DNA of 64,000 bases from Membranipora membranacea (taxonomy: Eukaryota; Bryozoa; Gymnolaemata; Cheilostomatida; Membraniporidae). The notes under the pieces were generated by a model. That model worked only from the letters and a program-made list of their open reading frames with translations, was not told the DNA's origin and made no database searches. The stretch is from positions 3,410,001 to 3,474,000 of the forward strand of contig OU612069.1 of the NCBI GenBank assembly GCA_914767715.1, written 5' to 3'. Position numbers and translations under genes: made by a program. Shown in pieces: positions 24,101-62,826 of the stretch. Position 1 is the first letter of the stretch. The number at the start of each line of letters is the position of its first letter.

Positions 24101-26479
24101 ATATGTGCCTGGACAGCAGGTAGTAGCACTTCATTATCAACCACTTCTTAAAAAAATTGGTTGATGATAAAATGCTACCACCGGCTATCCAGGCACAGTT
24201 TGAGCGCTTAAAGTAGCATGTCAGAAAAAAAATTGACTCTGTTCAACCATGTCTGCTTTAAGATGTTGGCCTGAGGTGTCCCTGAATATCATTTCTCATC
24301 TTCTTACATTTAACTAAAACAAGTATGGTCTAATTTACCTTTATTTGGAGTTGCTCCTCTTATCAGCAGCAACCCGGAGCGGAGACAAAATTGATAAAAC
24401 TTTATTCTGGCATACCTTGCCATTTAAGCTAACCACGATTATATATAGCTTATAATATTAAATCTTTGATATTATATGACGATATAATAACTTTAATATA
24501 TTATAACATGTAATGAAATGTATTTATTTTATTTACCAGGTATGTTCCATCAGAAGAGATGCCCTAAAGGTCGTAACTGTAACTTTCTTCATGTATTCAG
24601 AAATCCTGATAGTAGATTTAATTTGGCGGATAGAGATATGCTACCTCAAAATAACATCAACAGAGATCATCGAGACAGCAATACAAGGTGAGTCTGTCTG
24701 TGAGTCTGTGTGACAGGTTGTTACCCAACCTGTTGTATTTGAGGGACGGCTATAATAGGAGCTATCACATGAAAAAATACACTGCTGTTTACTTGGACCT
24801 TTCTTGAAGTGATCACCCCCCCCCTCCCAACTTCAAGTCTGACTTGAACCCTTGTATCAGTAACATGATCCCTTCATCCTTTAAACTATGGAAATAATCG
24901 GAGATGATTTTTAGACAAACTGCTATTCACTACTCAGCTTGTAAGAAAATGGGTAAACATGCCCAAAGTTTAGCAAAATATTGATTGATATCCTGAAAAC
25001 TATGCCGATCAGGATTCAGGATGTCTGTTCTCTCACTAAATGGTCCCAACTAAATGTGCGCATTGGTTATTATTGGTTACAGCTGGTTGAGTTTTACAAT
25101 AAGGGGGTTTGCCCCATACTCCCTGGTACAACTCGCCTGGGAGGGTGGACTAACCGGAGCATTAATCATTTTGCCAAAATACATTAAAAGTTGTCTTATT
25201 AAAATCAGGGAGGGGGCAACTCCCAATCCGTCTCATGTGTTTTTCTTGGCGTTTTAATATTTTTGGCAGGTTCCGATATATATAGCAATACGAACAACCA
25301 ATTGGTGCAGCCCTGAACTCATCATATTTTACATACATTTAAGGTTACTGTTCCATTGAATATGTCAATGTCTTACTCTTCTAGGCGATCTTCTTCTAGT
25401 AGGAGTGAGAGAGACAAACATAGCCCTAGTGAGCGACTCAACAAATCACGCAGGTCAGAGCGGAGATACAGAAATGGATGGGGAAGTGATGAAGATGATG
25501 AAAATTATTCTCGGTCTAACAGCAGAGAGTCATCAAGGTATCTAATATTTCTTAGGGAGAATTTGTTTTGAGTGAAAATTAGGTACCCACTGATCCTCCA
25601 AAAACAGCCGCCAACCTCAGAAGTCAAAAATAAGCTAGCACATGAATATTGAAGTGTCTTCAAAAGCTTTTTGCCTTTTGTGGAGTTTGTAAGACCCTTT
25701 TTCATGCACAAAACTTTGCATACAACTTAGTACAGCACATTGTTAAGTTTTCAAACACCAAATGGTAGTTGTCATTCATCGCTAATGATTCCAAATCAAT
25801 GGACTCCAGACTTCCTTCAACTTCCTTGCTCATCATAAAGCATTTCAGGGGACTGGTGGGTTTCAGTTTTGTGTTGGATGACTTCAGCACATCTTTATAA
25901 CTTTTATAAATCTGTGATTTTAGGAGCAAGTCGAGAAGTGAGTCACGTCATAGAGATAAAGAGAGGAACCACAGAACTACATCATATAGAGAACACAACC
26001 ATAGACATCGTACTTCACATCGAGATAAATACTCCGATTATGATGATGAGTATAGCAGATCTAGAAGTAGAGGTAGGTCAAGGTCTAATAGAAGTAGGTC
26101 AAGATCACCGGAATATAAGGCGAGCAGGCGCGTACGAGACAGGGACAAAGCTACGAGTGAAGGCTGTAACCCAAAAACATTAAATGACACAAAAACGGAC
26201 AGAAAGTTATCAAAGAAAAAGAGGCACAGATCCAGAGAAAAAAGATCCAACTCTAAGAGTCCTTCAGCGGAGTTATCAGACACTCAGAGCACTGGCACTG
26301 AGATGTCAGTAAATGGTTACATGACACCTGAAGGTGGTGTGACAGCTGAAGGTAATGTGACAGCTGACAATAGTGTGACACCTGACAGTAGTGTGACACC
26401 TGAAAGTAGTGTAGATTGGAGATATTGTAGAACACCTAGTGACTGTCACGGTGACAGCCCTGAACAGGTGGACTCTTGA
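18124..26479 (+). CDS. ZRSR2: ZRSR2, U2AF35-related splicing factor (zinc finger-UHM-zinc finger-RS)
   Basis: Exons: 18124-18248, 18969-19135, 19761-19856, 20435-20482, 20801-20907, 21244-21350, 22850-23012, 23672-23781, 24540-24687, 25385-25537, 25924-26479. Phases agree from 18969 onwards. The family recognises the 3' splice site, notably of U12-type introns. Visible in order: Lys/Glu-rich coiled region ([18 protein letters not shown]); first CCCH zinc finger ([18 protein letters not shown]-x8-C-x5-C-x3-H); U2AF-homology RRM ending [13 protein letters not shown]; second finger [19 protein letters not shown] (x7, x5, x3); then an RS-rich tail ([22 protein letters not shown]-type) and a short Thr/Val/Glu repeat before the stop. 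Two problems: the ATG exon was not found, and the only phase-compatible donor of the first listed exon follows an in-frame TAA at 18242-18244. Confidence 0.9.
21574..22203. mobile_element. TIR element in ZRSR2 intron with central tRNA-like segment, copy 1
   Basis: Ends TTTGAGGCTGCTCTTTTGTA and its complement at 22180-22203. Inverted similarity continues inwards (AAGTTATGGCCTCT and complement). The centre (about 21830-21900) has GGTGGGAATCGAATACGGG followed by ACGACGCTACCATCGCGCCA, which resembles a degenerate tRNA read from the minus strand. A shorter copy is at 48863-49244. Confidence 0.75.
24089..24212. mobile_element. Palindromic MITE in ZRSR2 intron
   Basis: Ends TTTAAGCGCTCAA and TTGAGCGCTTAAA. 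The arms share GTGCCTGGA and TATCAACCA with their complements. Flanking GTAG may be a short duplication. Non-coding. Confidence 0.7.
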
Positions 26480-27218: not shown

Positions 27219-28913
27219 TTAGCTCTGTGGCTTAGGACCTGGTGGTAGGACCAACGGTTCTTTCATAGTACTTCTGATTTCTGGTGTCTGGTGTGGGTCA
27301 ATCTGCCGAGTTTTAACGACGACTCTACTGGCTCTAAAAGGTTTAGTTTATCTCAAAAAGTTGGCAAATTAATCTTGTTTGAAAACTTACTAGAGATTCG
27401 GTAGGAAGTAAGCTCTCTCTAGCTGATGTAATAGGCTGTTGATTGATATTTCTGAGTTGTTCGTACCGCTCAATATCCCCTTGTGTCCATGTGACATGCT
27501 TAGTATCAGAGGTGCCATTGTGTGCTGAGCAGTTTTGGATTGGCCAGACAACAATTTGACTAGTTCGTCGGTGTGAGACCAGCCTATTGTAATGACTCCG
27601 TAGCCAATTTGTTGCAGCTTACGCTCAAAATTCTGAGCTTCATCTTGAACTCCTTGTCTGTTTGCACAGTTGTAGAGTATAAACCCACTGGGGCTCGCTC
27701 TGTCCTGACAGATTGGTCTCTTCTGTACATGTGGCAACTGGCAAATGATGACCTTTCCTGTAATCGAAAAACCAATATGTACAAATTTTCTCAATGATTA
27801 ATCATGTACTCTCAATATTTTTTTGTTGTTTTGGAATTTGAACAATCCTAGAAAGTATGTTGATAAACTGTTTAAATTGTTTTGACACGCTTGCAACAAA
27901 GCGGTGACTTGTAAATTCCAAATCATTATGAACTTAAACAGCTACAGGCGCTGCCCAGGAAGCTTATGAGTTTTAAGAACAACACCTCTCTCAAATCATA
28001 ATTCTAGGGATATGGCCCTAATCGAAACTTATCTATTTTATGATATTATTTATATAATGGAATCTTATAAATGTAGCATTGGTATGATAATCGCATATAG
28101 GCAGTTTTCTTGGTACAAATTTTAGCATATTTATGGAGGTAAAACTTGACAAAATGGATCTGCAGGTTTGCTAACTGTATATCATAACTCTTCAGATTTG
28201 GCATCTGCATCATTGAGAAAGGACAAGGTTTTCCAAATCATTGTGGGTTTAAAAGTTGATTAGTGTCAATATAAGTGATGCAAAATGCAATCCAATGTTA
28301 TGTTTCTGAAAGATCATCAACAAACGACCAGAAATTACTTTAAATGAGGTGTCCGAATACTAAAATTATTTCCCAAACCACAAATTCTCAATGGTGAAGA
28401 TGCTGAATGGCATAATCTTTCGATCGTTTATAAGATGAGCCCATTTCAGTTCATGTGCTAAAGGGTAACTTAATAGAAAATTGCGGCAAATTTGAGCCAA
28501 GAAAACTGTCTATTACTCAGAAAGGATCAATCAGTAAGTAGGCTCATAGAAACACAGTGGAGTATGGACAACATGTACAGTACAGTACCACTCCGGGTAG
28601 ATTTACATTTACCTTTGGCTTTCTGCACAAAAGGCCTTCGGTATTCAGACATGCATTCATTGTGATTTTTCCACTGTAGCCATGAAAAATCAGTGTGTTC
28701 TGATTCATGCTTTGCTGCGTGATGAAGAGGAGTTTTTCCATATTTGAATGAAGTGTTATTAGCTTGAATGCTTCTCTGTTTCATCTGTAGCAGCTTGTGA
28801 CGCTTTTCCTGACTGTCCACTGAGTTGAGGATGACCAGCAGACGTTCCGGTGATTCTTGCTGTGCTGCCAGATGAACAGGTGTTCTTTTGTTTTTGTCCT
28901 CCATTAGAAGCAG
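27219..28913 (-). CDS. Ankyrin-repeat plus half caspase-like domain, 5'-truncated gene fragment
   Basis: Exons: 28613-28913, 27391-27757, 27219-27327; phases agree (0/1, 1/2, 2/stop), about 258 residues. The first exon encodes ankyrin-type helices NKRTPVHLAA and YGKTPLHHAA. The second encodes a caspase p20-like fold: GFILYNCANRQG strand, QDEAQNFERKLQQIGYGV helix-strand, then SMSHGHKG with the catalytic-His SHG motif. The protein leaves the family just before the strand that should carry the catalytic Cys (Q-A-C-R-G) and ends in a Pro-rich tail of 35 residues. The 5' end is open: the first exon has an acceptor (28914-28925), and the broken ZRSR2 copy begins immediately beyond it. It could be a pseudo-caspase or a dead fragment. 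An ATG at 28902 could serve as a new start. Confidence 0.55.
28098..28512. mobile_element. Diverged long-TIR MITE in an intron of the ankyrin-caspase fragment
   Basis: Ends TAGGCAGTTTTCTTGG and CCAAGAAAACTGTCTA are inverted repeats related to the 8699 and 46073 elements. The interior shares only scattered similarity (ATTATTTCCCAAAC). Subfamily member. Confidence 0.6.
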
Positions 28914-28925
28914 CTGAGAACGATG

Positions 28926-30760
28926 ATTTAATATGGCGGATAGAGATATACTACCTCAAAGTAACCTTGGCGGAGATCATCGAGTCACAGATATTAGGTC
29001 AGTCTGTTTGTACTTGTGACACACTGCACCTCAGATGGCCAGGTTGAAGGGATGTTTATGATATGGATCCCATTATAGGCTTGCACAGGAACAGATTCAT
29101 CTGAGTGTGGCAATGGCACAGTCAATCAGTTGACCGGTGAAACCAAAACTCACAGCACAATCACCGGGTAGTGTGTAGCCTGTGCAAATTGCAAATGCTG
29201 GTAATTAGCCTGGTAACCGGTAACAGTGGCTAAGTAACATACAGTGAAAGAGTCATTCTTGACCAGAAATTAAGGAGTTATCTTCTTAATATCAGGGAGC
29301 AGACGATCCCCTGTAACTGTCTTGAATTGTTTGTCAATCTAAACAGTTAGTTTGGGTCCCTGATGTAAGAAAGTGTAGTATTATTATCCGGTATTATTGT
29401 CTGATATAATCCGCACTGTTCATCGATTCACAAACTCTGCATATTTGAGCTACTTTATTGTACACGCACTACAAGCTAACTGACTATCTAGATAAAGTTG
29501 ATAATGGGCAAAAACAGCATAAATGCAAACCACAAGATAATTGCTTTGACAGCTGCAAGGTAAACAACTTTGTATAACAATAATAAGCATATGAGCGACA
29601 TGATGATTCATGACATAAAAGCACTACAGACTACAGAAAGGTAATGATGACTTCTGGTAGATTATAAAACAAGTTTGTTCCCTCTGTAGTGGCAGCTCTG
29701 TGGAGGGATATAGCAAATTTTGGGTACCGTGGCAACTTGATACCTGACTTCTGCAATAGCACCCCGCCACCACAGAAAGAACAAACTTGTGCTAGGAGGA
29801 CCAAATTCATTAGCTAATCCAGTCAATAATTTTCAAACACAGTAACAAGGAGATTTATAAAGGAGATTATCAAACTTTCCAAACCATATATCAATCTTTA
29901 TCCTTTTAGACATTCATCATGAGCTTGAAGGAGTGAGAGACCCAGATATAGTCCGAGTTATCAAGTCAGCAGTATCAGCAGGTCAGAATGGAGGTATATG
30001 ATTAGATGACCAAGAGATGAAGATATCATTATTCTCAGGCTAACAACAGAAAGTCAACAATATCAAAATATTAAGCCTGGATCATATCTCATCTTATATA
30101 TTTATGGAAGAATTATACATTTAGTTCCTACTACTATGTTAGAAGTTTTGTGTATAACTTTCTTTCTCTCCGACCCCCAACACAGCATGGTTTCCCTATA
30201 GCTTATCTCAGATCTTACCAAATCAAGACTACTAGCAGTTGTTTCCTAACATTATGATATCAGGACGTTGTCAGGAAACTTACTGCTTGCAGTTTTGTGC
30301 CTTACGACTTCAGCGCATTTCTATCGCATTTTCAAATCTGTGATTTTAGGAGCAAGTCGAGAAGTGAGTCACGTCATAGAGATAAAGAGAGGAACCACAG
30401 AACTACATCAGATAGAGAACACAACCATAGACATCGTACTTCACATGGAGATAAATACTCCGATTATGATGATGAGTATAGCAGATCTAGAAGTAGAGGT
30501 AGGTCAAGGTCTACTAGAAGTAGGTCAAAGCCTACTTAAAGTAGGTCGACATCACCGGAAAACTGCCGACAACTAAGAGACACTTTGGATAAATTTGATA
30601 AATTCTTCTAAAGCGCACAAAGTCTTAGTGAAGGCTACAGGTCAAAATCGTAAGACAAACAAAAGCAGATAAGGAGTTATTTTTAGAAAAAGTGGCACAA
30701 AAGAAACACTCAAAACTGAACTCAGGAGAGAAATAATGCTCTCAAACTTAGACTTTCATC
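28926..30760 (+). pseudogene. ZRSR2: Broken duplicate of ZRSR2 exons 9-11
   Basis: Three blocks in the same order and strand as the intact gene. 28926-28999 matches the 3' half of exon 9 including its donor region (ADRDILPQ against ADRDMLPQ). About 29930-30066 is a decayed exon 10 with TTATTCTCAGGCTAACAACA. 30355-30535 is nearly identical to exon 11 from its acceptor (TTAGGAGCAAGTCGAGAAGT). An in-frame stop follows in AGTAGGTCAAAGCCTACTTAA, and decayed exon 11 sequence continues to about 30760. The first two zinc-finger/UHM exons are absent. The right part is much less diverged than the left, which suggests gene conversion or a recent event there. Confidence 0.85.
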
Positions 30761-31450: not shown

Positions 31451-34400
31451 TTAAGAATCTGGACACAGCTCAGTGGGCCCATTATATACCGACAGTGGAT
31501 CTACAACATGTGAGTAGGTGTTTTCTATAGCTGCTAGTGATTGACTCAGTATCGTGGCTATGTATGTGTCATCTGACGGTGGGCCCAACCTTCCAATTAA
31601 CATCCCAAGAGCATAGAGCTTGTCATCGCCTGTGTCCCTCATATACACAACGGAACCACTGTCACCTCCAGTAAATGGTTTTCTAGTATTTTAAAAGAGA
31701 ACGTGAACATTCAAATATCCACAATGTGCAATACTGACCGAGCCGAATATTGTACTTGGTTTGTGAAATGTCAGCAAAAAGACCACAATACATTATGGTT
31801 ATACCAAGCGAAATGTTTTTGATGAACTACCGACACCAAGGATTTTACACACCAAATTTAACAACATACAGAATTACATTGGTAAGTACAGGCGCAAAAG
31901 TTTAGTGATTCCATGAAGCCTACTCTTGTATCATTCCACATAATTTTTTCCAAATATGCATTGGCTTGATATAGGATGTACTGAGTGCTGACAGATTGGT
32001 GTTGTCAGTTCCATACACCAATCCAGCTAGAATTATTATTGGCCAAGAGAGACCGTGACAATATATTATTGCCCTCACTAGCTCGATGCTTCATAAATAT
32101 TTATGATAAAGAAATGATTTTCCAGAGATGGCGCAATCAGCTATGGTGGTTGCAATTCACTGACAGGCAATCAGTGTCACAGGAGTTGTTGGTTCAAGTC
32201 CTATCTGGGAAGCATTCTTGATTGATTTTCCCAGCACCCATCGCCCGCGAGTGAATCTACATTCTGATTGGGAAACTCTTTTTTTATAGATAATAAACCT
32301 AGACAGGTCACTGTACAGAGCAATACCATTGAGGCACTTAGTTGTGTTGATATAACGATGACGTCAAATTTGTGGTTACTTATGGCCATCATTGATTTGA
32401 AGCTCGCAGTCCAGGTGTTGCGTATATAATTTGATTCTGAGTTTGAAACTTGCAATAGATTCAGTAGCTGGCAGTGATCAATTTGATGGTATTCTTTTAT
32501 TTTATTGCAAAAAAGCTATACTCAGTATCCTGTCTAGGTTTATTACTACACTCTACTCACTCCGGAATGAAGTATAGTGCAAGACCTCTCTTCATACCAC
32601 CTTCTCTCCTAGTAACATCCCTCCTATCTGGCACAACTTTTCCTCTTATGCCATTTGCAATCACTTCACAACCGACCAGTGATAGAAGACGCTTGGCATC
32701 CACGGGGAGAATTGCAAGTGGAACTGCTCTCTTACAACTCTTTTGGATCTTGGTTAAGTCCTCGGCTTCTAGGGGGAGTAGAGCTATGTCTGTACAATAC
32801 CTGGATCTTGTCTGTGAGCTGTAATGTCTGTATGAGAGCAAAGGAACTCCTGTACAGGAAAATTTCTCGCTGTTGGGTGGAGCTAAGCTGATTGAGTACC
32901 GGTCAATATTGCGCTGGAAGTCACACTGTAGGCCGTTGGCAGGGAAGCTCATTTCTCGTTCATTGCTAGTTAGAAGAAGGTGAGCAGCTGTGACTGCAAA
33001 TATTGCTTGTCTCTTAGAGCCAGGCTTCTTATTTGTTCCAGCTAAAATAAGCTCGCAGGTGCCCCTTGCTTGTTCACTCCAAATCCCAGGATGATTGTAT
33101 GAACTGAGCAGAACCGTATATGAAGATGTTCCGATTTGTGGGGCCTCCCGTCGAGCTTCGGTCGCTTGATAGACACCTGGGGTCCTGTGAATATCAGTAA
33201 AATTGTTGGAAGAACATAAAAAGTGTTAAGTTGCACTGTATTTCGTTCATACTGAAATTCCTATACATGTAGTAATACTACTGGTAATAAATTTAAAGTA
33301 ATTACCTCAAATTTTCATATAAACAGTAAACATGTTTGCATGGGTCAGATTTGGTCAATTTACAGTTTGCCCTTATCATATTTTCGTATTCGAAAAAGAA
33401 AAACTATTCACACTGCTTCTAAGACCATGAAGGACAAAAATGTCAGGGAATTTCGGGAAGAAGCAAATCTTTTTCCAAATAGCCTAGTTGAAATGTGTGA
33501 ATGCGTAATGAAGCGACATATTTGGATCCCTTTTGCCATCATAAAATTGATCGGCAGACGTACATACTCATAAATTAGTGATTCACAGTGCACCGAACTT
33601 ACCAGGTTGTTAGCTGATGTGCATGGTATTGTTCTGTGTATTGTTCTCTAAGATTCCTCGTTGGATTAACACGAAGCTAAAAAAAAAGTATACAAAATAA
33701 AAGACAAGTTGAATCAAACAAGGCTGGCGTATCCCATAAAAAAGATTCAATCAACAATTCACAACACTTTAACCCATCCCATGGGACAGTTTAGCTAAAC
33801 CTGCTATTTTTCTTCATTTGGTTTCTGCATACACTAAAGATTTGAAATCGGACTTTAATTTACAACTAAAACAATAGTGCTGCGGTATGGTCATGCAGTC
33901 GGGGACTAGGGTAAATTTCTGTAGTCAACAATTTTGTCTAATTGGAAGCATTTGAGACAAAGTTATCTCGATCATCTAGATTGTAAGTAATGTTCAATTC
34001 AACTATTTTGATTTTCCGTACATATATTTACAGTCTGTTAGTCTCTGTCTACTCATGAAGACATAATATGGTGTTTAAAACCAATCAAAACACGAAACAT
34101 TATCATCCTTACTCCCCTAACCTAGTTTTTTTGGCATATAATGGAAAACATCCGTCCAGGATGATATTGTCTGCCAAATAAAATAGTGTATATATATATA
34201 GTATGCCTACTACAAGCAGTTTTAATACATATTTCTTTCATCTACTTGCCTTTGTTAGTGAGAACTTGTACTTCAGTGTACTCATGAGAACAGGGACTTG
34301 TGTTGGTTCAACTCGCTCAATTTCCCACCTCACCCTCATGAAGAGCTCATGGAAATCCTGAGTATCCCTGGCCTCTTTGAGTGCTTTTGCGAAAATTGGG

Positions 34401-37400
34401 ATCATAACATTCCTTGCAGCAAGCCCATCCATAAGAGTTGCTGCCATAATCAGCATGTCAGGACCACGTGGCTCGATGCTACCTGCAAAATCCCTACCCC
34501 TGCCTTGAATCACATGGTGGCCTTCTGGTATTTCTTTGCGGCAAAGTTGAGTTATGAGAAGCTTTGGCGTATCCATTAGTATGCGAGTGTTCATTTGTCG
34601 CACTACATCCTGCAGTGGCAGGAGACCATCAGTGCAGAGAAATGCATTAGAATAACCATGTCCAATTATGAAGCAAATCAAAGATTTACCTTCGATGGAA
34701 CATTCACTAATGGCTTGCATCACCTCAGCCTTGGACGGATTTTTCACAACGGTAATTTTTGTAGAGAACATCTGCATGACTTTGTTCAGTTCTCTAAGTT
34801 CGGTTTTGGCATGAGGTCTGTCCTTATCTGTGTAGATGCAAAGGACTTCTGGCTGCGCATTCATCTTGTAAAATCCCGGCTTTGCTGTAGAGGTGTACTC
34901 CTGTGGCTGTGACACTATAAAAGGAAATGAAGACAAAACTGGTGATTTTAACATACATTGTTTATCTGATGATATAGCATTGAACGGAAAATAATTTGCA
35001 TAGTAACAAACTTGGAAAGAACCTTTTTTTTGTTATAGTTGAAACTATAATCACTCAAAAAAAGGGCTATTACCTGAATCAATCACACTTTTACATCTTC
35101 TGTCCGTATCTGCAAGCGAATCTGTTTTGATGTTTCCATTCAGATGTGGATATACTTGTTTTGCAGGACTCAGAATACTCTCTGCATTCTTTATCTGATC
35201 ATCGAACTCATTGTTGTCCAAGTTCCTCTCTGCGTGATACAAAATCTGACAGATAATTGTGATAATATTCACCCGTGTCCAACTTTTACGGCACCGACCA
35301 GATCATCCCATCGAAGAAAGACACCACATCTGGCACATAATATCGTTCATCTACTCATAAAAAACTATAAACATTAAGCCACTGCCTTGTCAAGCTCAAA
35401 ACCAGTGAAAAGGATTCCTTTGTCGTTGAAAAAAAACAAGCAATACCGATGGATTGACTCTCACCTTCCCCATTAACACTGGAAGTTGTGTTAACGTTGT
35501 CTCCTGCAGTGTTTGGAGGTGATAGATCATGATTATCTGAACCAGCTGATGTTTGGTCCTCATGCTCACTCTTTGATTCATCTTCTTCTTCCCTGTCTCT
35601 GTCCTGATCTTCTCTATCATTGCCTCCAGGAGAGATGGCTGTCAAATATAATAATGATGTCTCAGTATGGAATTATAACCTTGAAGCTTTAGAAGCGCCT
35701 CCCCATATTTGGTCTCTTATTGAAGGTCTCAGTCTAAAAAAGAGCACTGTGTCAACCTTTTGAATAGATTTGAACACAGTTGAAACCATAAGCTGTACTG
35801 GAATGAAAATTCTTCTTAACTGTTCTCAACCATTGAAGCTGTCCCCTCTTTATATTATATATTCATTTAATGCTCACAATTTAGATCATGGTCTCCTAAT
35901 GTAAGGGAAAACTTTTTTCAAAGATGTGATTATTTTGTGCTTCGCATATTTTTTACCCCACCAAGTATCACAAACTTAAAAGCGCTACTATAGCTTCAAA
36001 GATCATGATTGCTAGGAACGAAAATACACAGGTTATCAATTTCAGTTTGCAATTAACCCCAATAAAAGAATGGGAAGGTTGTTCATTCATGGACCAGATA
36101 TACTCAATTACTCACCATGACGTTCACAACAGAGCTTACAGTCCATGGCAACACATGGTAAGAGTGCCAGTCTTGATTGATTAACCATGCTAAAATCACC
36201 AGCTGGGTAGTCCTGTTCAATGTATTCTACTCGAAACGCTTCCATTTCTGTAATGACAAAGGTAAAGTAAAACTCTGGTCGCTGTTTTATTTTTTTTCCC
36301 TCCTCTGCTCTTCCACAATCTCACGTATTTTATTATAACAATCTGCTTTAGTGTATATATTTTTACACTTTTTACACTACTTTATGGACAGTTTACACCC
36401 AGAACAAAAATCATAGTGTTTTTTTAATACTCATGACAAATATATGAAATCAATCAAAACCCTTCTTTTTCATATTTATACCCTTATTTTGCATTTATTA
36501 CCCTTATACCCATCGTTCGAAACTATTTGGAGTCAGAGGTCTGCTATGCTCTAGTTTCTCATTCAGGTGCCATTACCATTTACTGCTCATTAAATTTATG
36601 TCAAGGGCTAGACAGTGGCAAATTTTTCAAACCTACTGTCCATCCAATAGCTCTTTGAACATACAGCACTTGGAATATAAAGAGGCTGCACTACAATATT
36701 ATGGATTCATGTAGTGTGCGATCAATATTCCTACATTCTTATGTGGTTTTATATAATTTGAGCAATAAGAAAGGCCTATCAGTTGAAGTACTGTTTAATG
36801 ATGGAGTGTAATTCAGATCCAGCATTGATTGTAGACACTTGGTAGTCTATCTACAGGGATTTACTTGTGCGGGGAGTAATAATATGGACCAAAAATCTTT
36901 TTATGAGACTTACTTTTACCAATTTGCTATGCTCAAAATTGAATCTTAAAAACTTATGAGATCACAATAATTACACGGAGCATAGCATGTCTTGTCAAGA
37001 CAGGCTACATTGAGCCATATTTAATAGCGTAAATCATGAGGATTAATGATCTATTGATTTATAATTCACTAGAAAATCAATCTTTGCAGTGCACCTGCTG
37101 TGGCACACATTGTGACCATGTCATTTAACTATAAACTGAACTCAAAATTATTGTATTCCTACACTTTTTCATATTTAATTTTCTCTTAAAAAAAGAAAAT
37201 AAGATAACAAAAATCCATTAGCAAAGTCAAATATAGTTGAGGAATGTATAGCTATAATGATTTTCAAAAATAATAACTATTTACTGAGAAAAACTCCTAA
37301 ATGTAAATCAGTCATTATTGATTGATAGGGCATTGTTTATGAGAGTCCTACGTATGACATCATATTCTTGCCTATAAATGTAAACAAATTGTTATGATGT

Positions 37401-40400
37401 ATTTGGCGCCAAATTGGACCACATGTACATAATCAGAATTGGGTGATCTATCAACCTGGATAGGGATGGGAGAAAGTGAATCTGACCCGTACCCCTCTTT
37501 AATAGATGACTTGTTTGAAATGAGAGGAACTTTCTTACAATTCTAAATCAACACTGGCTGAGGGAGGCATTGATGGAAGACTAAATCAACAGTGAAGTTT
37601 AGGCGGGCAAACTTAAAATAACAATCTTAGAAAATCTAGCATTTAAAAAGAACGAACCCTGGGGAAGAAGATGAAGCTGCAATGTCACATTGTCATTGGT
37701 TCGGCTGTAGCCTACACAGCGCTGATATAGCCCAGCTGTGAAAATTACTGATAGATCATCTACTAATGTGCAACATAATGTGTTGCGTATCATGTCCTCT
37801 GATGCTGAATGACGCCATTCCTTTTCACTGATATCAAGCTGAACCTCGAGAATCCCTAAGTATTAGACATATAATATAAGACATCGATCAAGTGGAAAAA
37901 TTGTGTGGTGATGATACCAATCACCAGTATTAAGTGTACCGTCGGTTGTTTAAAGGGCCGTTAGGTCGTTTAAAGGGCAACCGGGATTTCGCAGCAATGT
38001 ATAAATGGGTAGTAAAGAATGTGCTATGCAGCATCAGCTTTGTGCATGACACAATGCAAAACTCAAAGTAGTTGCTGACTCTGAGCTGAGTTATACTTCA
38101 ATTTAGGAGAGGTTCAAAGGCATCGCTGTAATAATGATAGAGCACAGGTTAAATATAACATGAACAGGGAACTGCTCTGTGTGGTTCCCTATTAGTTTAG
38201 TTTGAGCAGCATTTTAGTATATACCTGATGGATGAAATGTTTAAGAAGAATTCTTACTAAATAATCATCCGATTTATATTTGGTCTTTTTCTCTATGCAT
38301 AAGGTGCAATCTGATCACAATCGATGGAACTTGTTTGAAACCCTGATTGCCCTTTAAGTATGCAAAAGGTACATGAATATTACCATAACCATATATCACA
38401 TATGCATGAGTCTTATCAGTACAACAAACTTTTCATTTTAACTTACTGTAGTCGTTCAGAATGGGCCGCAAATCATCGGCAACTGAGGAGGTGAAGAAGT
38501 CTCCTTTGATGAGATGAAGATCCTCTGTAAAAATGAAAAAACAATTTTTTGCAATTTTGTTTCACACTTGACTACACTCTGAGCTTGAATCAATATGTCC
38601 ACACCACTGTTTGATCATTGGCATCGGTATGATGCCCTCTAGGGAATTCCAATCCTAGATCATTCTGGAGAAGCAAAGTAGTCTTGCCCTCCTCTCTGCT
38701 GCTACTATCTTGCCACACAGAACTTGGTGCAGCACATTGTCTTTAGGAACGGGGTGTTTGCAAGTGTGGTAGCTGTGCAGGGCTTATGAAGATGTTTCTA
38801 TGTTTGTATGGCAGAGTATCAAATGCCTAATCAAAGCTCATTAGCTGGACAAAGATAATTAAAGCTTTATTTTGTTCAAGTCCACCGATAAACAATCAAG
38901 TCCTACCTCGGCGCAGTCTATATATGTATGTATGTAAGTATGTATGTATCCTAGCTGTCTCTCTCAGCTCAACCTTTTCTGTGATGTTGAACACAAATGG
39001 TTTCTTCCGTAGTGACTCCTCAAGAAAACCACTTACGACCTTGATTACTAATTTGATGATGACATGAACAGACTCTAAAATACATTTTAACGAGTACAGC
39101 ATGTGTAGAATATATTGCAGGGTGCTGGCTTATGCAGCACAAAATCATTATTCGGTTTTGATCCAATAATTTTGCTTTCACCCTCGCAAACATATAGAGA
39201 GTCTGTTTACTTACCTGGATTCGCGACACTATCATAATCTAGAAGTTGCAGCGAGTATATCTCAGCTAGAAAATAAAGAAAAAGCTGTAGAAGGGACGTG
39301 CATATGCTGAAACAAGCGGAAACACCATTTATGATTAAAAAAAAAGATTTCAATCAGCAAACAAAGTTCCACTAATGGCCCAATCTGAAATGAATGGACA
39401 TGTTGCTTCAAATAAATTCTAATGTACTCACATTCATTGCGAACATCATCCAGTGCCTCACTTTCAAGTGGCTCTGCTGTGGCGTTCACACTGGTCACAT
39501 CACTCCTAGACCCCTGGTCTGATTCTGGAAAGAAAGCCTTAGTTTGATTTTAAAAACACACAGAACAGTCTAAGGCTGCCTGGTTGCTCAAACAAAAAGC
39601 AGGCTCTCAAAGTTGTAGAGAGTTCAAAGTTTTTGAGAGCCGCTTGGAAATATTTGCTACGGTACATTAGAGGGTGGCTCAGTTGGATAGAGCGCCGTCC
39701 CTTCAGCTTCAAGTTTATCACTTGCCGGAGGGCGCTTCACCACCCTCCCACCTCATATCATGCGCTTTTTCCTAGCTCTAAAAGAAGAACATGGATGTCA
39801 ATGTGTCGTAATGATCTTACCTGTACTAAATACATCTGCATTAAGGCTGGCAACTATGTATCCTTGTTCTTCAATCGAAGCTTGCATGCTGCAATGGTCT
39901 GAAAAGTAAAGGATGATTAAAGATGGCAGACAAAATATTGATGAATTTCGACAAGTGTTAGTATGCTACAATTTTATAGAGCATTAACTGCTGATGTACT
40001 TCATCCTGCCTCAATTTTGTGTCAGTTAGTCAAAGTGCTTAAACAGCAGCAAGTAGGTGTTTGTGGCGTTACATTATCAATCAAATTCATTTCTTGGATG
40101 TTGTTCGATAATCTCACGTATGAAGTCCTTGATAATGTTATACCAAAAAGCTGCACATGCATTTGTTCAGGCGAGTAGACTTCAGGGCCGTAGTTTATAA
40201 TATATGGCAGGGGAGGCAAGAGTCTGAGGCCGGTCTAAAACATTGCTAGGAGGGGTTCTGCAACCTCCCAAAGCGATCTACGGTATATAAATGGCAAAAC
40301 GAAATCCCAAAGGAGTTTTTAATGACATGAATTATTTAATCAATTTGTTTTTAGGCAACCTTAATTAGCTTTCTAGGGGAGGCAGTGCCTCCCTGCCTCC

Positions 40401-42446
40401 CCTAAACTAAAACTCCGGGCCTGGACTCAGTTCAAGTGGGATTAGAAGTGACGCTAGAAGGTCCGCTATCAAACTAATTTGTAATTGTAATTTCGGCAGG
40501 AGTACATGGCCACCCATCAACTCCTACCAAAAGTTATTTCTGCTATACCAATTTAGGATATTTATTATCTCAGGGTGATGTTGACAATATGTTGTAACCA
40601 ACGTACCAATTGGAAGTTCGTGTGGACTCTCGTCAGATATAGGAAGGCTAAAAAATAATTACAAACTATTAATTATGAATAAGGAATTATGACCTGTGTT
40701 TACAAAAGCTTGTGTATATGACTTACAGACAAAGAAGATATCATAGCGCGTATTTGGATGAATTAAAGTTTTGTTTGGGGTGGTGGTCGATAAATGAATA
40801 TCACTACCAACGATCTGGGCACTCTAACTACATTTACATACTACAGTTCTTAGATATTTATCATCAGATATTATATTATAACAATATTTTTAATAGAGAG
40901 AGAGAGACCTAATGACATTACTTGGTATTCATATAAACTATTCTGCATGTGTGCTTCGTATCACATGATTTTATACCATCCGACATTATTATTGCTCAAA
41001 CTGTGCAGACTGTATTTTTGGATTAACTGAAAGACACAGCTAGTATTCAGATCCATTGATTATCGAGATAAGTTAGCATTGATATGAATTTATGAATCAG
41101 TCGTAAAATACACAGCCTGGCTACTTGTGGATAAATTATTTCGTCAGTATATAAAAAGCTGACAGCTTTTACGTTATGCATTGATCGGCATCCCAGTAGC
41201 AACCTTCAGAAACTCTATCTGTCAATTACAGTCAGGAATGTGTAGCTAAATTTGCAATAATAATAATTATTATTTACCGAAAGACAACCAACTCACCTAG
41301 AACTCAGCGGCGCACAGTCATAGCGGAACAAGTCTTCTACAACGTAATTCGAAGCATGATTCATTATGTCAAATTGGAGCAATAAAAATGAGAGCTGACC
41401 TTACAAATTTTATAAAGGACTTGGTGCTGTCATGATAGAAGGCAACACTGCTCTGACTTGAACTTTGGCATGAAGGATGATCATCAAGAAATTTGACCGT
41501 AAGATCACATGTAACAACTTTGTTGCAAGCATTTGGTATTATCACAGAGTAAGGATATATATCTTTACTCTGTGATATTATGCTACAAGTTTTGTTATGA
41601 GCTGATACTCCGATTTAGAGGAGACAATTCCCATTTCAAAGCTTAGTTAGCACAGGGAGGGTATCCCACCCTCCCTGGTTGGCATTACACAACATCTGGA
41701 TAGGGGGGGGGGGGGTTAAAACTCGCACTAAGACCTACAGCTTAAATGGTGACAGAGAAACTAGGTATCAGGCTCAATATCTGGTTAGAACTTCTTCCTT
41801 CTATTGCTGGCCAGTTTTAAAGGACAATGTCTTGAAGAAAGTATGTTATTATCAAGTTATACATGCGGTTGGATGAATAGTTTTAATGCTGGGAATATAT
41901 TTCAATTCGACAGTAAATTTGCCGAAACATTTGATGCCTCACCATTGCTACTGATCCGGGTCGATGATCTTCTTCTTCGATTTCGACCACCCGCTCCTAC
42001 AAGTGTGTACAAGATTATATGACTTGATCATGACATGGTGTAAAAAGGTTTCACTGGCATGAACTGATTAAACCTATGATGTTCCAGCATGAAAGAGAGC
42101 AACATTTTGTAGGCATATTTTAATGAGATAGAATGCTTTCATTGATTCAGGGATTAAATAACTTACCCTTGTTAGCGGCTGGTTGTCTTCGTCTAGCCCC
42201 TCCATGGTAACTTGACTGTCTAGAACTGTGACCCTCAGCTACAATTAGTATAAATAATTTCAACTCTGACCCTAGATGACAGTGATGCTATCTCTCTGAT
42301 CTGATCACTTCCCACCTATGTTTCACATGCACATGGTAAAATAATTGAACTGTCCGATATAAGAAAGAAAATGAGCCATGCTTACGTCTTTGTCCTCCAA
42401 CAGCGCCATACTGTTCAAGATCCTCGTCACTAGACATGTTAGACAT
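31451..42446 (-). CDS. Gene B: caspase-like plus trypsin-like dual protease (940 aa, 17 exons)
   Basis: Exons: 42386-42446, 42167-42238, 41943-41996, 41297-41336, 40607-40647, 39821-39898, 39432-39524, 39215-39265, 38447-38524, 37658-37855, 36116-36247, 35465-35638, 35074-35229, 34250-34914, 33603-33676, 32561-33184, 31451-31682. All 16 junctions keep frame; one intron is GC-AG (donor 34242-34249). Residues 1-20 are the shared start (SSDEDLEQYGAVGGQ). Next comes an Arg-rich, NLS-like stretch (GGRNRRRRSS), then an acidic middle region with an unrecognised block (about 190-255) and a Cys cluster (CKLCCERH, about 300). The caspase-like domain is about 420-631 with His495 in GHG and Cys534 in TQLCRK. 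The trypsin-like domain is about 675-915 with His724 in VTAAH, Asp788 in TDIALLPL and Ser872 in GGDSGSVVY. Both catalytic sets are complete and the protein has no signal peptide or membrane segment. The ATG exon has an acceptor at 42537, so non-coding 5' exons exist upstream. Confidence 0.85.
32115..32215 (+). repeat. tRNA-derived SINE-like segment in gene B intron
   Basis: An A-box-like GAGATGGCGCAATCAGC is followed about 60 bases later by a B-box-like GGTTCAAGTCC. It does not fold into a full tRNA. A fragment rather than a gene. Confidence 0.35.
35680..36002. mobile_element. Palindromic TIR element in gene B intron
   Basis: Ends CTTGAAGCTTTAGAAGCGCC and AAGCGCTACTATAGCTTCAAAG are inverted repeats. 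The left part (ATATTTGGTCTCTTATTGAA) matches the element at 5946-6710. Non-coding. Confidence 0.6.
40183..40423. mobile_element. MITE in gene B intron
   Basis: Ends CAGGGCCGTAGTTTA and TAAACTAAAACTCCGGGCCTG, with GCAGGGGAGGC and GCCTCCCCT inside them in inverted orientation. The target duplication is not clear. Confidence 0.6.
41540..41577. repeat. 38-base hairpin made of two transposon ends
   Basis: TATCACAGAGTAAGGATATA followed by its near-complement TATCTTTACTCTGTGATA. The stem equals the ends of the element at 58645-59717, so this looks like an extreme internal deletion of that family. It lies in gene B intron 3. Confidence 0.7.
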
Positions 42447-57400: not shown

Positions 57401-60400
57401 AGTAAGGAGGGATAGTAATATTACATGACCATATGCTTTTAATAAATAAAATTAAGTAGAGAATTTTCCAACTCACAAATTGTAACTTGATGATAATTAC
57501 CCAATAATTACCCAATTTCAGTAGTCATAACCACAAGCATGTGCAAATAATAAAGCTTTGTTATCAATATAGCCCTTGAATAGTGGTCGGTGAATGAAAG
57601 ATGTTTTGATGGCTGTAGTATAATAGTTAATCCCATATTTTGATTGATTTTGGGAGGTTTCCCCTGTGTACCCCACAAGCTGTTGCCCCAATTCAATTGA
57701 TAAACTGTTTTAGAGAAGGCGTGCACCTAACAGCCAGATTTATTTTCCTCTCTAGCTTGTTCTACAAAGACATACATCGATTTGGTATATCTTGTCCAGT
57801 AAATCGTATAAAACTGGCATACCATCCTGCAAAAACTATAATCAGACTAAATACTATATTATCTCCTACTACTAAGGGCTTAACACTCTCTGGTTAAACG
57901 CTAAAAGGTATGTTTTAACTCTACTGTTTATTTTGCTGTTTAATATTTTCTTACTGATAACTTTTTTTAACTGTCATCAGATTTAATATTTATCTAATGT
58001 ACACTTAAATTTTTGAGCTATCAATTTTGAATCCAAAACTTTTTTTACCACTTTTATTGCGCCAAATTTTTTATATTTATAAACATTTTAGTGACAGAAG
58101 TTTAATATAGAGTACAGACAACCTTTACAATATCTCTGTGATATAAGCTAATACGCCAGGGAGCCATTATATATGGTGTAGACTGGAGAAGAGGTTGGAC
58201 AAAATTGAACACGCGGGGTCTGGGATCTGTCTTCAGCTGATAATGATGGCTGGTTTATCGTACAGAGCCAAGAGCTCGATGCATTGCCAAGGGCATCAAC
58301 AACAATACCAGCGTAACAGCTTGGTGCTATTGAAGGGGGCATATCCTAGCTGTTCGGAATTCAAAAGATCATGGTCATTTAAGTCACAAGTGAAGAAAGT
58401 AAGAATGTGAAGACACAATTTCATGTCAACCTGAAGAAATGAAGACTAAATATTTAACCGAAATATCTACATTTCAAGACTGAAGAACAGCATGAAATTT
58501 GAAGATCAAATTTGAAGATTGTATTACTAAGTGCCAAGACCGAAAAATCAACTGAGGGCGTTCATATTCCTGTCGAAAGACGGCCTTGCTACATGATGGG
58601 AAAAACCAGACGTGATTAGTATAAAGAAGATATTTTTATAATAATATCACAGAGTAAGGACATACAGAGGGGACAGTTCAATGATAGTTATAGTGCCTGC
58701 GGTTTTTGATTCACTGGGGGAAAATTGTGCACAGCTGGATGCCAAAAACTCATTATCTCTATATGTTATAATGGCATTTTTCTTGCAGACATCCCTACCT
58801 TTGATGGGCCATAATTCATTCTGTATTTATCCTAAAGACTGATTTCCAACTTTGCTGGAATGTCCAAGCTTCAAGCTATACACCATATTGTTGTCATTTT
58901 TTGCTAGGATTCATAGGCTAAGAGTAATCCAGGTTTTGAAATGAGTTTTGTCATATAAATTTACATGTGACAATTGGCTGGTCATCAAAATTAGGAAATG
59001 TCCGTGCATTGACCTAAGCCCTATGTAAATCTATATGATAAAACTCATTTTAAAAACCTGGATTACTCATAGCCTATGTATCCTAGCAAAAAATGACAAT
59101 AATATGGTGTATAGCTGAAGATTGGACATTTCAGAAAAGTTAGAAATCAGTCTTTAGGATAAATACAGAATGAATTATGACCTATCAAAGGTGGCTATGT
59201 CTGCATGACAAAACTCCACTGTAACTTATATATATTCTGAAATTGGCAGGTAGCCAGATTGATGAATTTCCCATTCTGCGCATGCTCAGCTCTGGGCATG
59301 AGCTGATCTCTGCAAAATTGAGCCTCGGAATTCCGAAGCCATCTGATTGGCTACCTGCTCTGGTGACATACTTCCCAAAGCGTGCGGATTTGTTATCAAT
59401 AGTTATCCTCTCTTGTCATTATTAGCTGATTTTGATTGACAGTTTATGCAGGGGATATCCCATTTCCCCTTTCCAAAGTTGCAATCAGAACCCAAACTAA
59501 ACTCATTGTTCTTGCACATGCGCAAATTCAAGTCACGCATGATGCATACTTAGCCTTACGACACCTGCTTTGTGGTAATGATACCCTAGTTTATCAGTGA
59601 TCTACATGCCCAGTCAGATCACGAGAGTCAGTATGTGAATTTCCCCCAGTGGATAAAAACCGCAGGCACTATAACGATCATTGAAGTGTCCCCTCTGCTT
59701 ATCCTTACTCTGTGATAATATGTTGCATAAAAATATCTTCCTTATAATATTCATGTCTGGTTTTCCACATCCTCAGACCTGGCCTCGTGGCCTAATGGAT
59801 AAGGCGTCTGACTTCGAATCAGAAGATTGTGGGTTCGAGTCCCATCGGGGTCATTGTTTCTCATTTTTAGGGGAAAAAGAAAACATTGCATGTCATTCAC
59901 AGTTATGCATTTATTGTTGTTGACATATCTCATGTCTCACACAGGGCCTCTATTTCAAATTACGTATTTGTGACAATTTAAGATGCTCGCTTGCTTCCTT
60001 CCAACTCAGCTAACGACATAAAACATAGACTACAGACCTAGAAATCAGCTGGGATAAAATTTGGTGGCCAAAACAACATATATTGACAAGGAATTGAAGT
60101 GCACCAGCTCCATCATGTTTGTTGATCATGCCAGCCAAAGCCAACTAAAACCGTAATCTATCTAGTCACTTAAAACCTATCATTTACAAGCAACAGAAAT
60201 TTCCTCGATTCCACACAACTGGTTATCTATAGACTGTTGTTGCTTACTGGTAAATTTCTTGTTGTTTGGGTATTACTCTCAATCAAATTGATTTTCGCAA
60301 AAGAGGTCATAGCGGAGCTCGAACCCGCGACCTTCTGCGTGTAAAGCAGACGTGATAACCGCTACACCATACGACCCTTGATGAATAGCGGGGAAATTTA

Positions 60401-62826
60401 TATTGATATGGTTCCTTAGCATAACTGGCAGTTCGCTCAGCTGATTGGTCATTCCATGCTAAGCAATAAGATGAAGTTGAGTGCATTACATGGGTTTCCT
60501 TCATCACTTTATCATAATATCCACATCGATAGACACAAGTCATAAACGAGCATATATAATGGTCAGAAAGTGATATGCCAATAGAATCTGATGTTGCAGA
60601 GTAACAATGTATACAACTCTGTGTTTCCTGGTATAAACTTTGAACATACTGATGACTGATTGAACGCATCTGCCTAAACATCTACCCCATCTGACATCGG
60701 CTGCAATAATTCAGGTCAAATTATCGTTACGAGTTGTCTTACTTACCTAACTGATGGCGTGAGGTGTGTGCTGTCCTTAACCCTCTCGGACACCTCAAAT
60801 TTAACCCTTCCTTCACCAGCAGTGCGCCCCTCTGTGTCAGCTGTCTGCTTTGGTATCCTTGCCCCTGACCCGGTATACATGAAGCGTGCTGATGGACTGC
60901 GGGCTAAAAACCGACAACATTAAACCATATTCAAAATTTTCCCATAATGCAACATTGACATTGAATGCGCTAAAAGATCACCTCAAGACATAATACTATC
61001 ACCATAGTATTAACTTTAACGATATAAATAAAATCAATCGATCCATTACGGGGATTTCCCAACAATTGCATCGTGGAGAAAATCATACTGATTGAGATTT
61101 CAGCGTGTTAAGCGCTTTGATTATGGTGCTGATGCTGTATTGAAAAGTCATACTGACTCTCGTGATCTGACTGGGCATGTAGATCACTGATAAACTAGGC
61201 TATAGTTACCACAAAGTAGATGTCGTAAGGCTAAGTATAAATCATGTGTGACTTTAAATTGCGCATGTGCAAGAACAATGAGTTTAGTCTAGGTTCTGAA
61301 AGAAAATTTGGTCAGGGAGAATGGGATAGCCCCTGCATGAACTGCCAATCAAAATCAGCTAATAGTGACAAGAGAGAATAACTATCAATATCAATTCCGC
61401 ACGCATTGAAGAGCATACCACCAGAGCAGGTAGCCTATCAGATGGCTTCGGAATTCCGAGACTCAATTTTGCAGAGATCAGCTCATGCCCAGAGCTGAGC
61501 ATGCGCAGAATGTTGAAAAGTAACTTGCACACACATAGTCTGAGCTATCCAAGCTCCTGCCCTTGTCCAGGGGAGACAATGCGCAGGCAATATGTCTTAT
61601 CCTGCCTCCGACATTCTATACTACTTTGGATTTCAAGATGAAGTATTTCAAGATAACATCTAATCTCTTGTATAAGAATAATAAAATAACCAATGGGCCG
61701 GGTTGGTATGCTGTCAGATAATTCAAAGATATGTAATTTGTGACGACTTAGACCTCTTATTAAACTCAGTAAAACTCAAGAACGGTTGCCATGGGCTTTG
61801 ATGATGTTTAGCCATAGACTTAGAGTTTAGCTTAGCTAGTGGAGAGGGAGCAACTCAAAATACAGGCAAATATATCAAACTTGATCCTTAGCTCAACCCT
61901 CCCTGGCTCAACATGTCCATATTCGTAGATGTATAATATAACTGGACACTATAATTATCTCATATCTACTTTCATTGGATAATGAAGCCATCAACTTTTT
62001 TTTATGAAATACAGAACATCTGATTAGGCGCTCACATAGATCAATTTTTTTACAACTTCATACTCAAAGCAAAACAAAAATGTTTTTGTTAAAACATTAT
62101 TGAGCAAAAAAATGCTGTCGAAATTGAATTTTCAAGTTTTAGTTACAAATCACAAAATCACGAATCAGGCTTATACTGTGTTTTGATGGGGATTACAAAT
62201 TAAACAGAACATAATTAGCTCTGTGGTACCAGCATGTGTCAGCATTCATGTGTCACTCGCCACCCAGATGCCCCGCTGTCGGACCGAAAGCTACGAAGTA
62301 CTTTTTTTTATAAATACTCTAATTTTTAATATAATTTTTAGTAACCATTTCTATCGTTTTATATTTTACTGCTGTGTATTTTACTGACTAACTCTTTTTT
62401 TCTAGTGGAATTCACTCCGGTACATCGCACTGTTGATTTTCGAAGGAACAAAAATACAAACAACAACAACAACATTTAAACCAAGCCTGATTAATCAATA
62501 CTGACCACCGTTCTCACACACATCGCACACAAAACTGCCTCTAAATAAATCTACTTCATAATAATTAACATTTTGAACAGATATATAGCTCAATATTTGA
62601 TAGACAATTTTCAAACTAAAAATCGTTACCGAAAATTAAAAAGTAGCTATTTTTAGCCGTTTATATTGATGCACTCACACTGTAAGCCGGCAGCCACCTC
62701 ATTCTCTATCCTTGTTCTCTCCCGCTCGATGCACTTCTGTCTCACCACGTCTCCCATGTGTCCGAGTAATCGTCTCCTCGCGTTATAAGTCTCCCTCTCT
62801 GCGTAAGATAGGGCGTGGTACGGCAT
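54437..62826 (-). CDS. MYND-type zinc-finger protein (284 aa, six exons)
   Basis: Exons: 62679-62826, 60747-60903, 56804-56899, 56142-56296, 55032-55192, 54437-54574; all GT-AG, all phases agree. The N-terminus [20 protein letters not shown] is a charged helical segment. Next comes a polar linker, then [20 protein letters not shown] leading into the zinc finger. The finger has Cys141, 144, 155, 158, 164, 168, His177 and Cys181, the full C-x2-C-x10-C-x2-C-x5-C-x3-C-x8-H-x3-C MYND pattern. The C-terminus is basic ([20 protein letters not shown]) and ends [14 protein letters not shown] fingers bind Pro-rich peptides in other proteins. I do not recognise the orthologue. An acceptor just upstream of the ATG (about 62835) implies an upstream non-coding exon. 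The 3.8-kb third-to-second exon intron carries two tRNA genes. Confidence 0.85.
56950..57030. mobile_element. Diverged short copy of the MULE-like hairpin MITE
   Basis: CCTGCATTCAGAATCGCTGA and GGGAAGCAATGCGGGCAAACT then GGATCAACCTTGATCTAGTG resemble the 4130 and 63542 elements. Left end missing. Confidence 0.4.
57139..57285. mobile_element. Palindromic MITE
   Basis: CTTTGGCTTAGTTTGGG at the left, and arms sharing GGTGTGGGGTGG and GGATGGAAGCTCACA with their complements (TGTGAGCTTCCATCC, CCACCCCACACC). In a MYND gene intron. Confidence 0.7.
58645..59717. mobile_element. Long inverted-repeat element with a nested MITE
   Basis: Ends TATCACAGAGTAAGGA and TCCTTACTCTGTGATA. Long inverted similarity inside: GTGCCTGCGGTTTT against AAAACCGCAGGCAC, and the inner palindrome 58900-59110 with TTTTTTGCTAGGAT and GTAATCCAGGTTTT. 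The nested block 59265-59637 interrupts the right arm. No transposase ORF. In a MYND gene intron. Confidence 0.75.
59265..59637. repeat. Nested repeat, copy 1 (inverse copy at 61145-61512)
   Basis: Matches 61145-61512 on the opposite strand: CATTCTGCGCATGCTCAGCT at its left and GATCACGAGAGTCAGTATG at its right. Confidence 0.85.
59781..59853 (+). tRNA. tRNA-Arg (anticodon TCG)
   Basis: 73 bases. Acceptor stem GGCCTCG pairs with CGGGGTC (two wobbles). The D arm contains CTAATGGATAA. Anticodon stem TCTGA/TCAGA encloses CTTCGAA, anticodon TCG. T arm GTGGG-TTCGAGT-CCCAT; discriminator A. No intron. Confidence 0.95.
60304..60376 (-). tRNA. tRNA-Val (anticodon TAC)
   Basis: 73 bases on the minus strand. 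Acceptor GGTCGTA pairs with TATGACC. Anticodon stem TCTGC/GCAGA encloses TTTACAC, anticodon TAC. T arm GCGGG-TTCGAGC-TCCGC. A and B boxes are intact (GTGTAGCGG, GGTTCGAGC). No intron. Confidence 0.95.
61145..61512. repeat. Repeat, copy 2 (inverted relative to 59265-59637)
   Basis: TCATACTGACTCTCGTGATC at the left and AGCTGAGCATGCGCAGAATG at the right. Not embedded in the TATCACAGAG element here, so it moves independently. Confidence 0.85.

Follow-up and report, generated by a model that had tools for sequence, protein, structure and literature searches.

A candidate single-chain fusion of an animal-type caspase and a serine protease in the bryozoan Membranipora membranacea

The DNA analyzed here (hereafter the window) is a stretch of 64,000 nucleotides (nt) from the bryozoan Membranipora membranacea (assembly GCA_914767715.1, contig OU612069.1; C5:3410001-3474000 in our own-genome searches, made in 18 contigs totalling 339,339,785 bases). 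It carries, on the minus strand, a gene in which a caspase domain is followed by a serine protease domain. A preliminary description of the window, made from its letters alone, had presented this gene as one polypeptide of 17 exons. We rebuilt the gene independently, from 42446 to 31451, and obtained 16 exons and 930 residues in one open frame, which runs from the caspase into the protease as described before. The catalytic residues of the rebuilt chain are His485 (IIGHG) and Cys524 (TQLCRK) in the caspase, and His714 (VTAAH), Asp778 (CTDIALLPL) and Ser862 (GGDSGSVVY) in the protease. The motifs and the spacing of these five residues agree with those given earlier, but all five residue numbers are exactly ten lower; because the shift is uniform, both models share one frame from the caspase onward and the discrepancy lies upstream of it, probably at exon 11. 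This 35-nt exon, with an intron of 49 nt after it, and the exon 8 donor, gttcgt, which is off consensus, are the weak points of the model. Not all splice sites are canonical, and the intron that unites the two proteases begins with GC (34249).

Residues 429-617 match the PF00656 profile with an E-value of 8.6e-15 over profile positions 16-232 of 233; the match spans p20 and p10, and the catalytic His and Cys are present. In a sequence search of the PDB, the best matches of the caspase exon were caspase-7 and caspase-3. The genome holds at least 145 matches to this family (best 140 of 515 candidates scored), the nearest paralogues being two copies on contig C10, 39 percent identical to the window caspase, and one on C7, 33 percent identical. 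All four domains share GL[AS]ARNVMIP in p10, so that the ARN is common to the window caspase and the three paralogues. The kept Gln two residues before the Cys and the Arg in p10 would be compatible with cleavage after Asp. With the caspase exon, one database protein was retrieved (67 candidates): P0001, which is 99 percent identical and keeps the catalytic residues. It is an unspliced reading that crosses the upstream intron border and terminates in KASR, the end expected from an unaltered GCAAGT at the donor of the joining intron; P0001 is thus genomic or pre-mRNA and neutral on the join.

Two further observations concern the caspases of this genome. The best PF00656 match in the genome (among the best 140 of 515 candidates; L009, C4:18270899-18271708) reads FDSSTGS at the expected catalytic-Cys motif and may be a pseudo-caspase. 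On C10 (2.60-2.64 Mb; L048, L049, L059-L062), two 99 percent identical caspase genes lie about 21 kb apart, with a 283-residue frame of unknown type after the caspase, as seen in L059.

The C-terminal domain had been called a complete trypsin-like protease, which proved too strong: it lacks an IVGG-type activation end and a Cys beside the His, and a Pro instead of Asp occupies the position that sets the Arg/Lys specificity of trypsin (Asp189, chymotrypsin numbering). No significant match to the domain was found in Pfam, NCBIfam, PADLOC or the PDB; no Pfam family (PF00089 and PF13365 were tested) matched it at E<=10, and no homologue in other species was found at E<=10 among 1941 candidates. 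Matches to riboflavin synthase (NCBIfam E 0.16; PDB E 1.1) and to the serine protease chain 4om9_A (PDB E 1.7), as well as the single match of a tblastn search of plasmids (E 4), were taken as chance. The ordered set of His, Asp and Ser motifs (AAH, DIA and GDSG contexts), on the other hand, did not arise in any of 200,000 shuffles of the domain's residues.

This protease belongs to a family that is expanded in the genome. All 35 candidates of the own-genome search were scored and gave 35 matches at E<=10, two of which are the window itself; at E<=0.001, with places within about 2 kb grouped, there are 15 other loci, 13 of them on C9. We tried 16 copies (the 15 loci and the window), of which 12 were aligned on condition that they carried a G[DHE]SGS motif; L043, L044, L032 and L036 were left out, and L046 was shortened by trimming. 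The protease His and Asp are both kept in 12 of 12 aligned copies. The Ser motif reads GDSGS in ten and GHSGS in two (L019 and L020), a result that is not independent, as the motif was the entry condition. At the His, L043 reads VPAH and L044 FPAH, and the remaining copies read T[SA]xH. Wherever both exons matched in the paralogues, the Ser motif stands on a second exon of its own, in roughly the same position. The serine-protease-like genes of C9 (L019, L021-L036) are partly clustered between about 1.7 and 21 Mb, and the copies scanned passed without Pfam detection. In L044 (6863-7099) a Cys replaces the nucleophile Ser, and this copy is perhaps a cysteine-protease version. The expanded intracellular protease family is a more solid by-product of this analysis than the fusion itself.

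The case for one chain lies at the join. The caspase exon ends in AAG/GCAAGT, and this GC donor (34250/34249) has the top score among the 473 GC sites that this strand holds between 31 and 43 kb. A join scan that started at 34330, with score limits, a GC penalty of our own choosing and a site profile taken from 13 introns of our own model, gave one path in frame within the range 34330-34100 and the score limits, from 34250 to 33676 and from 33603 to 33184. Upstream of the protease His, exons 14 and 15 contain no Met; six phase-0 first exons, starting from five ATGs, were listed inside the joining intron, and their donors depart strongly from consensus. Evidence independent of the window comes from the C10 paralogues. 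L048 closes its caspase exon on the homologous Lys codon, as AAG/GTATGA; reading on from there meets an in-frame stop, and the exon after it takes up the frame in phase 0, with 283 residues from stop to stop. The donor of L049 is the same, and since 3591 bases of the two loci are 99 percent identical, they count as one observation. At sequence level, L048 indicates that these caspases have an intron border, not the protein end, at the codon after p10.

One gene over two, as proposed in the preliminary description, is hence the better reading, given the in-frame joins, the intron position shared with the paralogue pair and the absence of any Met upstream of the protease His. What is directly established is the frame, the family of the caspase and that of the protease, the catalytic residues and the splice position shared with one paralogue pair. 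We propose that the gene may encode one intracellular polypeptide of about 930 residues, with an unassigned N-terminal region that includes an acidic linker, then a caspase of animal type and a serine protease at the C-terminus, a reading in which our belief and our doubt are evenly balanced. Confidence in the fusion is lowered because the paralogue evidence amounts to one observation and because other in-frame joins exist.

Several observations weigh against such a chain, and the first of them concern the protease domain. Compared with a trypsin profile made of bovine trypsin plus eight plasmid proteins, the single protease sequence did not rise above 30 shuffles. In favour of the domain, the family profile scored 25.65 with the trypsin profile, above the maximum of 18.31 reached by 100 column shuffles, but this match is confined to the GDSG segment and would not by itself establish the double beta-barrel fold. 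Structure prediction of exon 15, alone and without an alignment, gave a poor model with a mean pLDDT (predicted local distance difference test) of 32.5. Among the copies left unaligned, L044 reads GDCGS and L036 GNSGQ, and no GxSG was found in L043 and L032. At the join, the donor is GC rather than GT, and an in-frame stop (34238-34240) falls inside the initial 12 nt of the joining intron; if the intron is retained, the reading continues Ala-Ser-Arg-stop and the protein ends in KASR. The acceptor at 34170, which leads to a stop, scores 13.6 versus 7.8 for that at 33676 and is the highest in 34200-33000. A widened scan gave eight donors that stay in frame by way of exon 14, among them the canonical-looking AGG/GTGAGG at 34334, as well as five joins that go straight to 33184. 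With the exception of 34250, these would all remove the caspase end (34334 drops the last 28 residues); they would still fuse both proteases, with a shortened caspase. In the third close paralogue, L050, the reading continues beyond the homologous codon, and a possible GT donor is not met until a few codons further on. As to a second caspase-protease pair, tblastn with the caspase found none in the 10-kb stretches around nine other protease loci, the tenth stretch (L041) being a caspase locus. When 25 protease places were compared with 61 caspase places, the two kinds came close only in the window, the next nearest pair being 89.5 kb apart; the 61 are part of 240 listed and include all listed C9 places, both lists are lower bounds, and caspases near a protease could have escaped a listing drawn from the best 140 of 515 candidates. 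Finally, no relative of the whole protein was found in other species at E<=0.001 (best 8000 word-sharing candidates scored).

Part of this evidence would suit two adjacent genes on one strand, the caspase gene ending at KASR or in the 34170 exon and the protease gene having an undetected first exon of its own. Such an arrangement fits the stop just past the last caspase strand, the ATTAAA at 34226, which is 12 nt beyond the KASR stop and counts against the fusion too, the top-scoring acceptor that runs into a stop, the failure of tblastn to find caspases around the nine protease loci and the missing splice border of L050 at the homologous codon. It does not sit well with exons 14 and 15, which offer no Met before the protease His, with the poor donors of the candidate first exons, with the GT donor of L048 and L049 at the same codon, after which the frame continues, or with the availability of in-frame joins to the protease. 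We consider two genes to be fairly unlikely.

The GC donor could also be leaky by design, so that alternative splicing yields a caspase-only form (with the intron kept or the 34170 exon used) beside a two-protease form. In the parts of PMC2490688 drawn on here, GC donors are fewer than 1 percent of all donors, are closer to consensus elsewhere in the site and are enriched in alternatively spliced genes, although neutral fixation of GC donors is also possible. The donor in question matches consensus at the remaining positions and is followed immediately by a stop, and L048 and L049 carry GT rather than GC at this codon; this support being indirect, we rate regulated splicing here as unlikely. 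It is a speculative extension, and quite doubtful, that the gene holds two unrelated active proteases in one chain and that the leaky donor would decide between a caspase made alone and one with the serine protease tail, splicing thereby choosing which of two death or defence programmes one activated receptor runs. That the chain is made as a recent or decaying by-product, with one domain inactive and in a scaffold role, is very improbable. In its favour, the fusion was seen once in this genome (from lists that are lower bounds), neither the whole protein nor the protease found a relative in other species in the searches above, and the Ser motif is altered in other protease copies; against it, all five catalytic residues are present, which decay would not retain, and P0001 keeps those of the caspase.

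If the fused chain is made, its N-terminal region has to be considered. This region matched no Pfam domain, and a search of its own genome (10 candidates) gave nine matches, all within the gene itself. Residues 163-262 resemble an NCOA6-type TRADD-N domain by eye, but 192 of 1000 shuffles reached the score obtained with an NCOA6 fragment, and no TRADD-N or Death-like domain at the N-terminus was matched by Pfam; the candidate was rejected. An intracellular location, which the preliminary description had read from the absence of a signal peptide, is plausible: none of the first 40 hydropathy windows is hydrophobic, and the maximum over 19 residues anywhere in the protein (1.41) falls inside the caspase. 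The Arg-rich stretch near the N-terminus (GGRNRRRRSSTR) is indeed present in the sequence, as a putative nuclear localization signal.

It had further been suggested that the chain is cleaved in the linker between the two proteases, freeing the serine protease. Caspases cleave mainly after Asp, and residues 622-703, which cover the linker and the beginning of the protease, have 0 Asp and 6 Glu in 82 residues (the chance of 0 Asp at the protein's own Asp frequency is 0.0024). The caspase is thus unlikely to release the protease there, and the suggestion is not sustained. Asp residues before small residues lie N-terminal to the caspase (KTD384/S, LAD388/T and VID398/S), so that processing is expected to shed the N-terminal region and to leave a two-protease fragment. 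For the fused chain we infer transcript, activity, activation order and location, and picture the following course. The N-terminal region would assemble copies of the protein, and the caspase would then be activated by proximity and cut itself after KTD384, LAD388 and VID398. The released piece would be a tethered two-protease effector, in which the serine protease may act while attached or may be controlled via the caspase dimer, the linker being an unlikely caspase substrate.

Table 1. Exons of the caspase-serine protease gene and features of the joining region (window positions).
Feature	Position	Strand	Evidence or remark
Exon 1, start ATG, residues 1-20	42386..42446	-	frame, gtaagc donor
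Exon 2, Arg-rich	42167..42238	-	tgtag acceptor, gtaagt donor
Exon 3, GGRNRRRRSSTR, putative stretch resembling a nuclear localization signal	41943..41996	-	splice-site listing
Exon 4	39821..39898	-	splice-site listing
Exon 5	39432..39524	-	splice-site listing
Exon 6	39215..39265	-	splice-site listing
Exon 7	38447..38524	-	splice-site listing
Exon 8, N-terminal region without known domain	37658..37855	-	donor gttcgt departs from consensus
Exon 9	36116..36247	-	splice-site listing
Exon 10, acidic low-complexity linker	35465..35638	-	frame, splice-site listing
Exon 11, 35 nt	35295..35329	-	placed to restore frame; low confidence
Exon 12, candidate Asp sites KTD384/S, LAD388/T, VID398/S	35074..35245	-	sequence
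Exon 13, caspase, His485 and Cys524, p20 and p10 in a single exon	34250..34914	-	PF00656, PDB search
GC-AG intron between caspase and protease, donor GCAAGT	33677..34249	-	donor score; GT donor of L048/L049 at same codon
Alternative GT donor AGG/GTGAGG within exon 13	34334	-	in frame with exons 14-16; no other support
Possible alternative exon, TISSWTDVFHYMPKKLG then stop, ending the protein after the caspase	34113..34170	-	acceptor score, translation; no other support
Exon 14, linker (about 24 residues), turns phase 0 into phase 2	33603..33676	-	tttttttttag acceptor, gtaagt donor
Exon 15, protease His714 and Asp778	32561..33184	-	conserved in paralogues
Exon 16, protease Ser862 (GGDSGSVVY) and stop	31451..31682	-	separate second exon similarly placed in paralogues

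Elsewhere in the window, the minus strand at 27390-28917 has an ankyrin-repeat exon (Ank_4, E 4e-06) and then a caspase p20-like fragment (PF00656, E 0.00036, below the cut-off), in which the His region is present and the Cys region was not seen; this may mean a pseudogene, or else a gene that lacks an exon. Pieces of an Arg-Ser-rich coding exon and of its surroundings occur twice in the same order, about 4.3-4.4 kb apart (25845-26102 and 30271-30528, 91 percent identical; 24615-24701 and 28925-29011, 82 percent), and are a partial tandem duplication. Two transfer RNA genes, at 59781-59853 (plus strand) and 60304-60376 (minus strand), are flanked by an inverted repeat with arms of 364 nt (59272-59635 and 61149-61512, 90 percent identical).

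The outcome of this analysis is a probable caspase and serine protease on a single chain, the only such pair seen in this genome. If one transcript carries both, an animal caspase would be physically coupled to a serine protease with complete catalytic residues. No example of an animal caspase-serine protease fusion was found in the literature covered, namely the open-licence papers of PMC. The C-terminal domain in addition marks an expanded protease family, undetected by Pfam here, that can be surveyed in other invertebrates.

Compared with animal caspases-3/-7, the window caspase has in common the catalytic His and Cys, the Gln two residues before the Cys and, by eye, the p10 Arg; it differs in reading LAAR where these enzymes have YSWR in p10, and in a chain that extends beyond p10. 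Lineage-specific shuffling in an invertebrate, with an N-terminal module joined to effectors that include a caspase, likewise characterizes the Death-like/TRADD-N proteins of Amphimedon, whose C-termini vary and in some cases hold a caspase and for which a related expansion is described (PMC8195603, in part). Those proteins have Death-like/TRADD-N domains, whereas Pfam found none in the window gene, and a trypsin-like C-terminus is not among the Amphimedon domains named in section 10 of that paper. Coral caspase-X similarly pairs an animal caspase with a second protease-fold domain as a possible modulator, but its partner is an inactive caspase domain, according to the part of PMC4715348 used here, and that of the window gene is a serine protease.

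The preliminary description held that caspase-like and trypsin-like domains are normally separate effectors, which is not fully right: trypsin-caspase fusions are published for bacteria (PMC6426788, in part), and we found one in Rhizobium plasmids. In the passages of PMC6426788 considered, alphaproteobacterial proteins have a trypsin-like domain with a full triad N-terminal to a caspase-family p20 with a QC dyad, followed by DUF4384. The Rhizobium plasmid protein AHG49600.1 (L001:2390-4957) matches PF00089 at residues 38-291 (E 1.9e-54), PF00656 at 402-644 and DUF4384 at 710-801; a motif scan printed no standard dyad motif for it, and 88 of 221 matching records of the plasmid collection cover at least 80 percent of its length. 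Its surroundings (CP007069.1, L001:777-5762) form an operon-like row of a caspase gene, the trypsin-caspase-DUF4384 fusion and a serpin gene, an arrangement suggestive of two proteases that come with an inhibitor of their own.

Like the window gene, these bacterial proteins hold a serine protease and a caspase-family domain in one polypeptide. In them the trypsin comes first and is a classical PF00089 domain, with a signal-like N-terminus and DUF4384; in the window gene, in contrast, the order is reversed, PF00089 and DUF4384 are absent, and the protease matches no trypsin model. The caspase His of the bacterial fusion is replaced by Gln (PMC6426788, in part), whereas the window gene has an animal-type caspase with both His and Cys. 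Uniting both proteases is not new to life, as it has a bacterial precedent in reverse order; the window gene, if it is transcribed as one, would be a parallel to the bacterial trypsin-caspase proteins and would make the recurrence of two-protease coupling in cell death testable.

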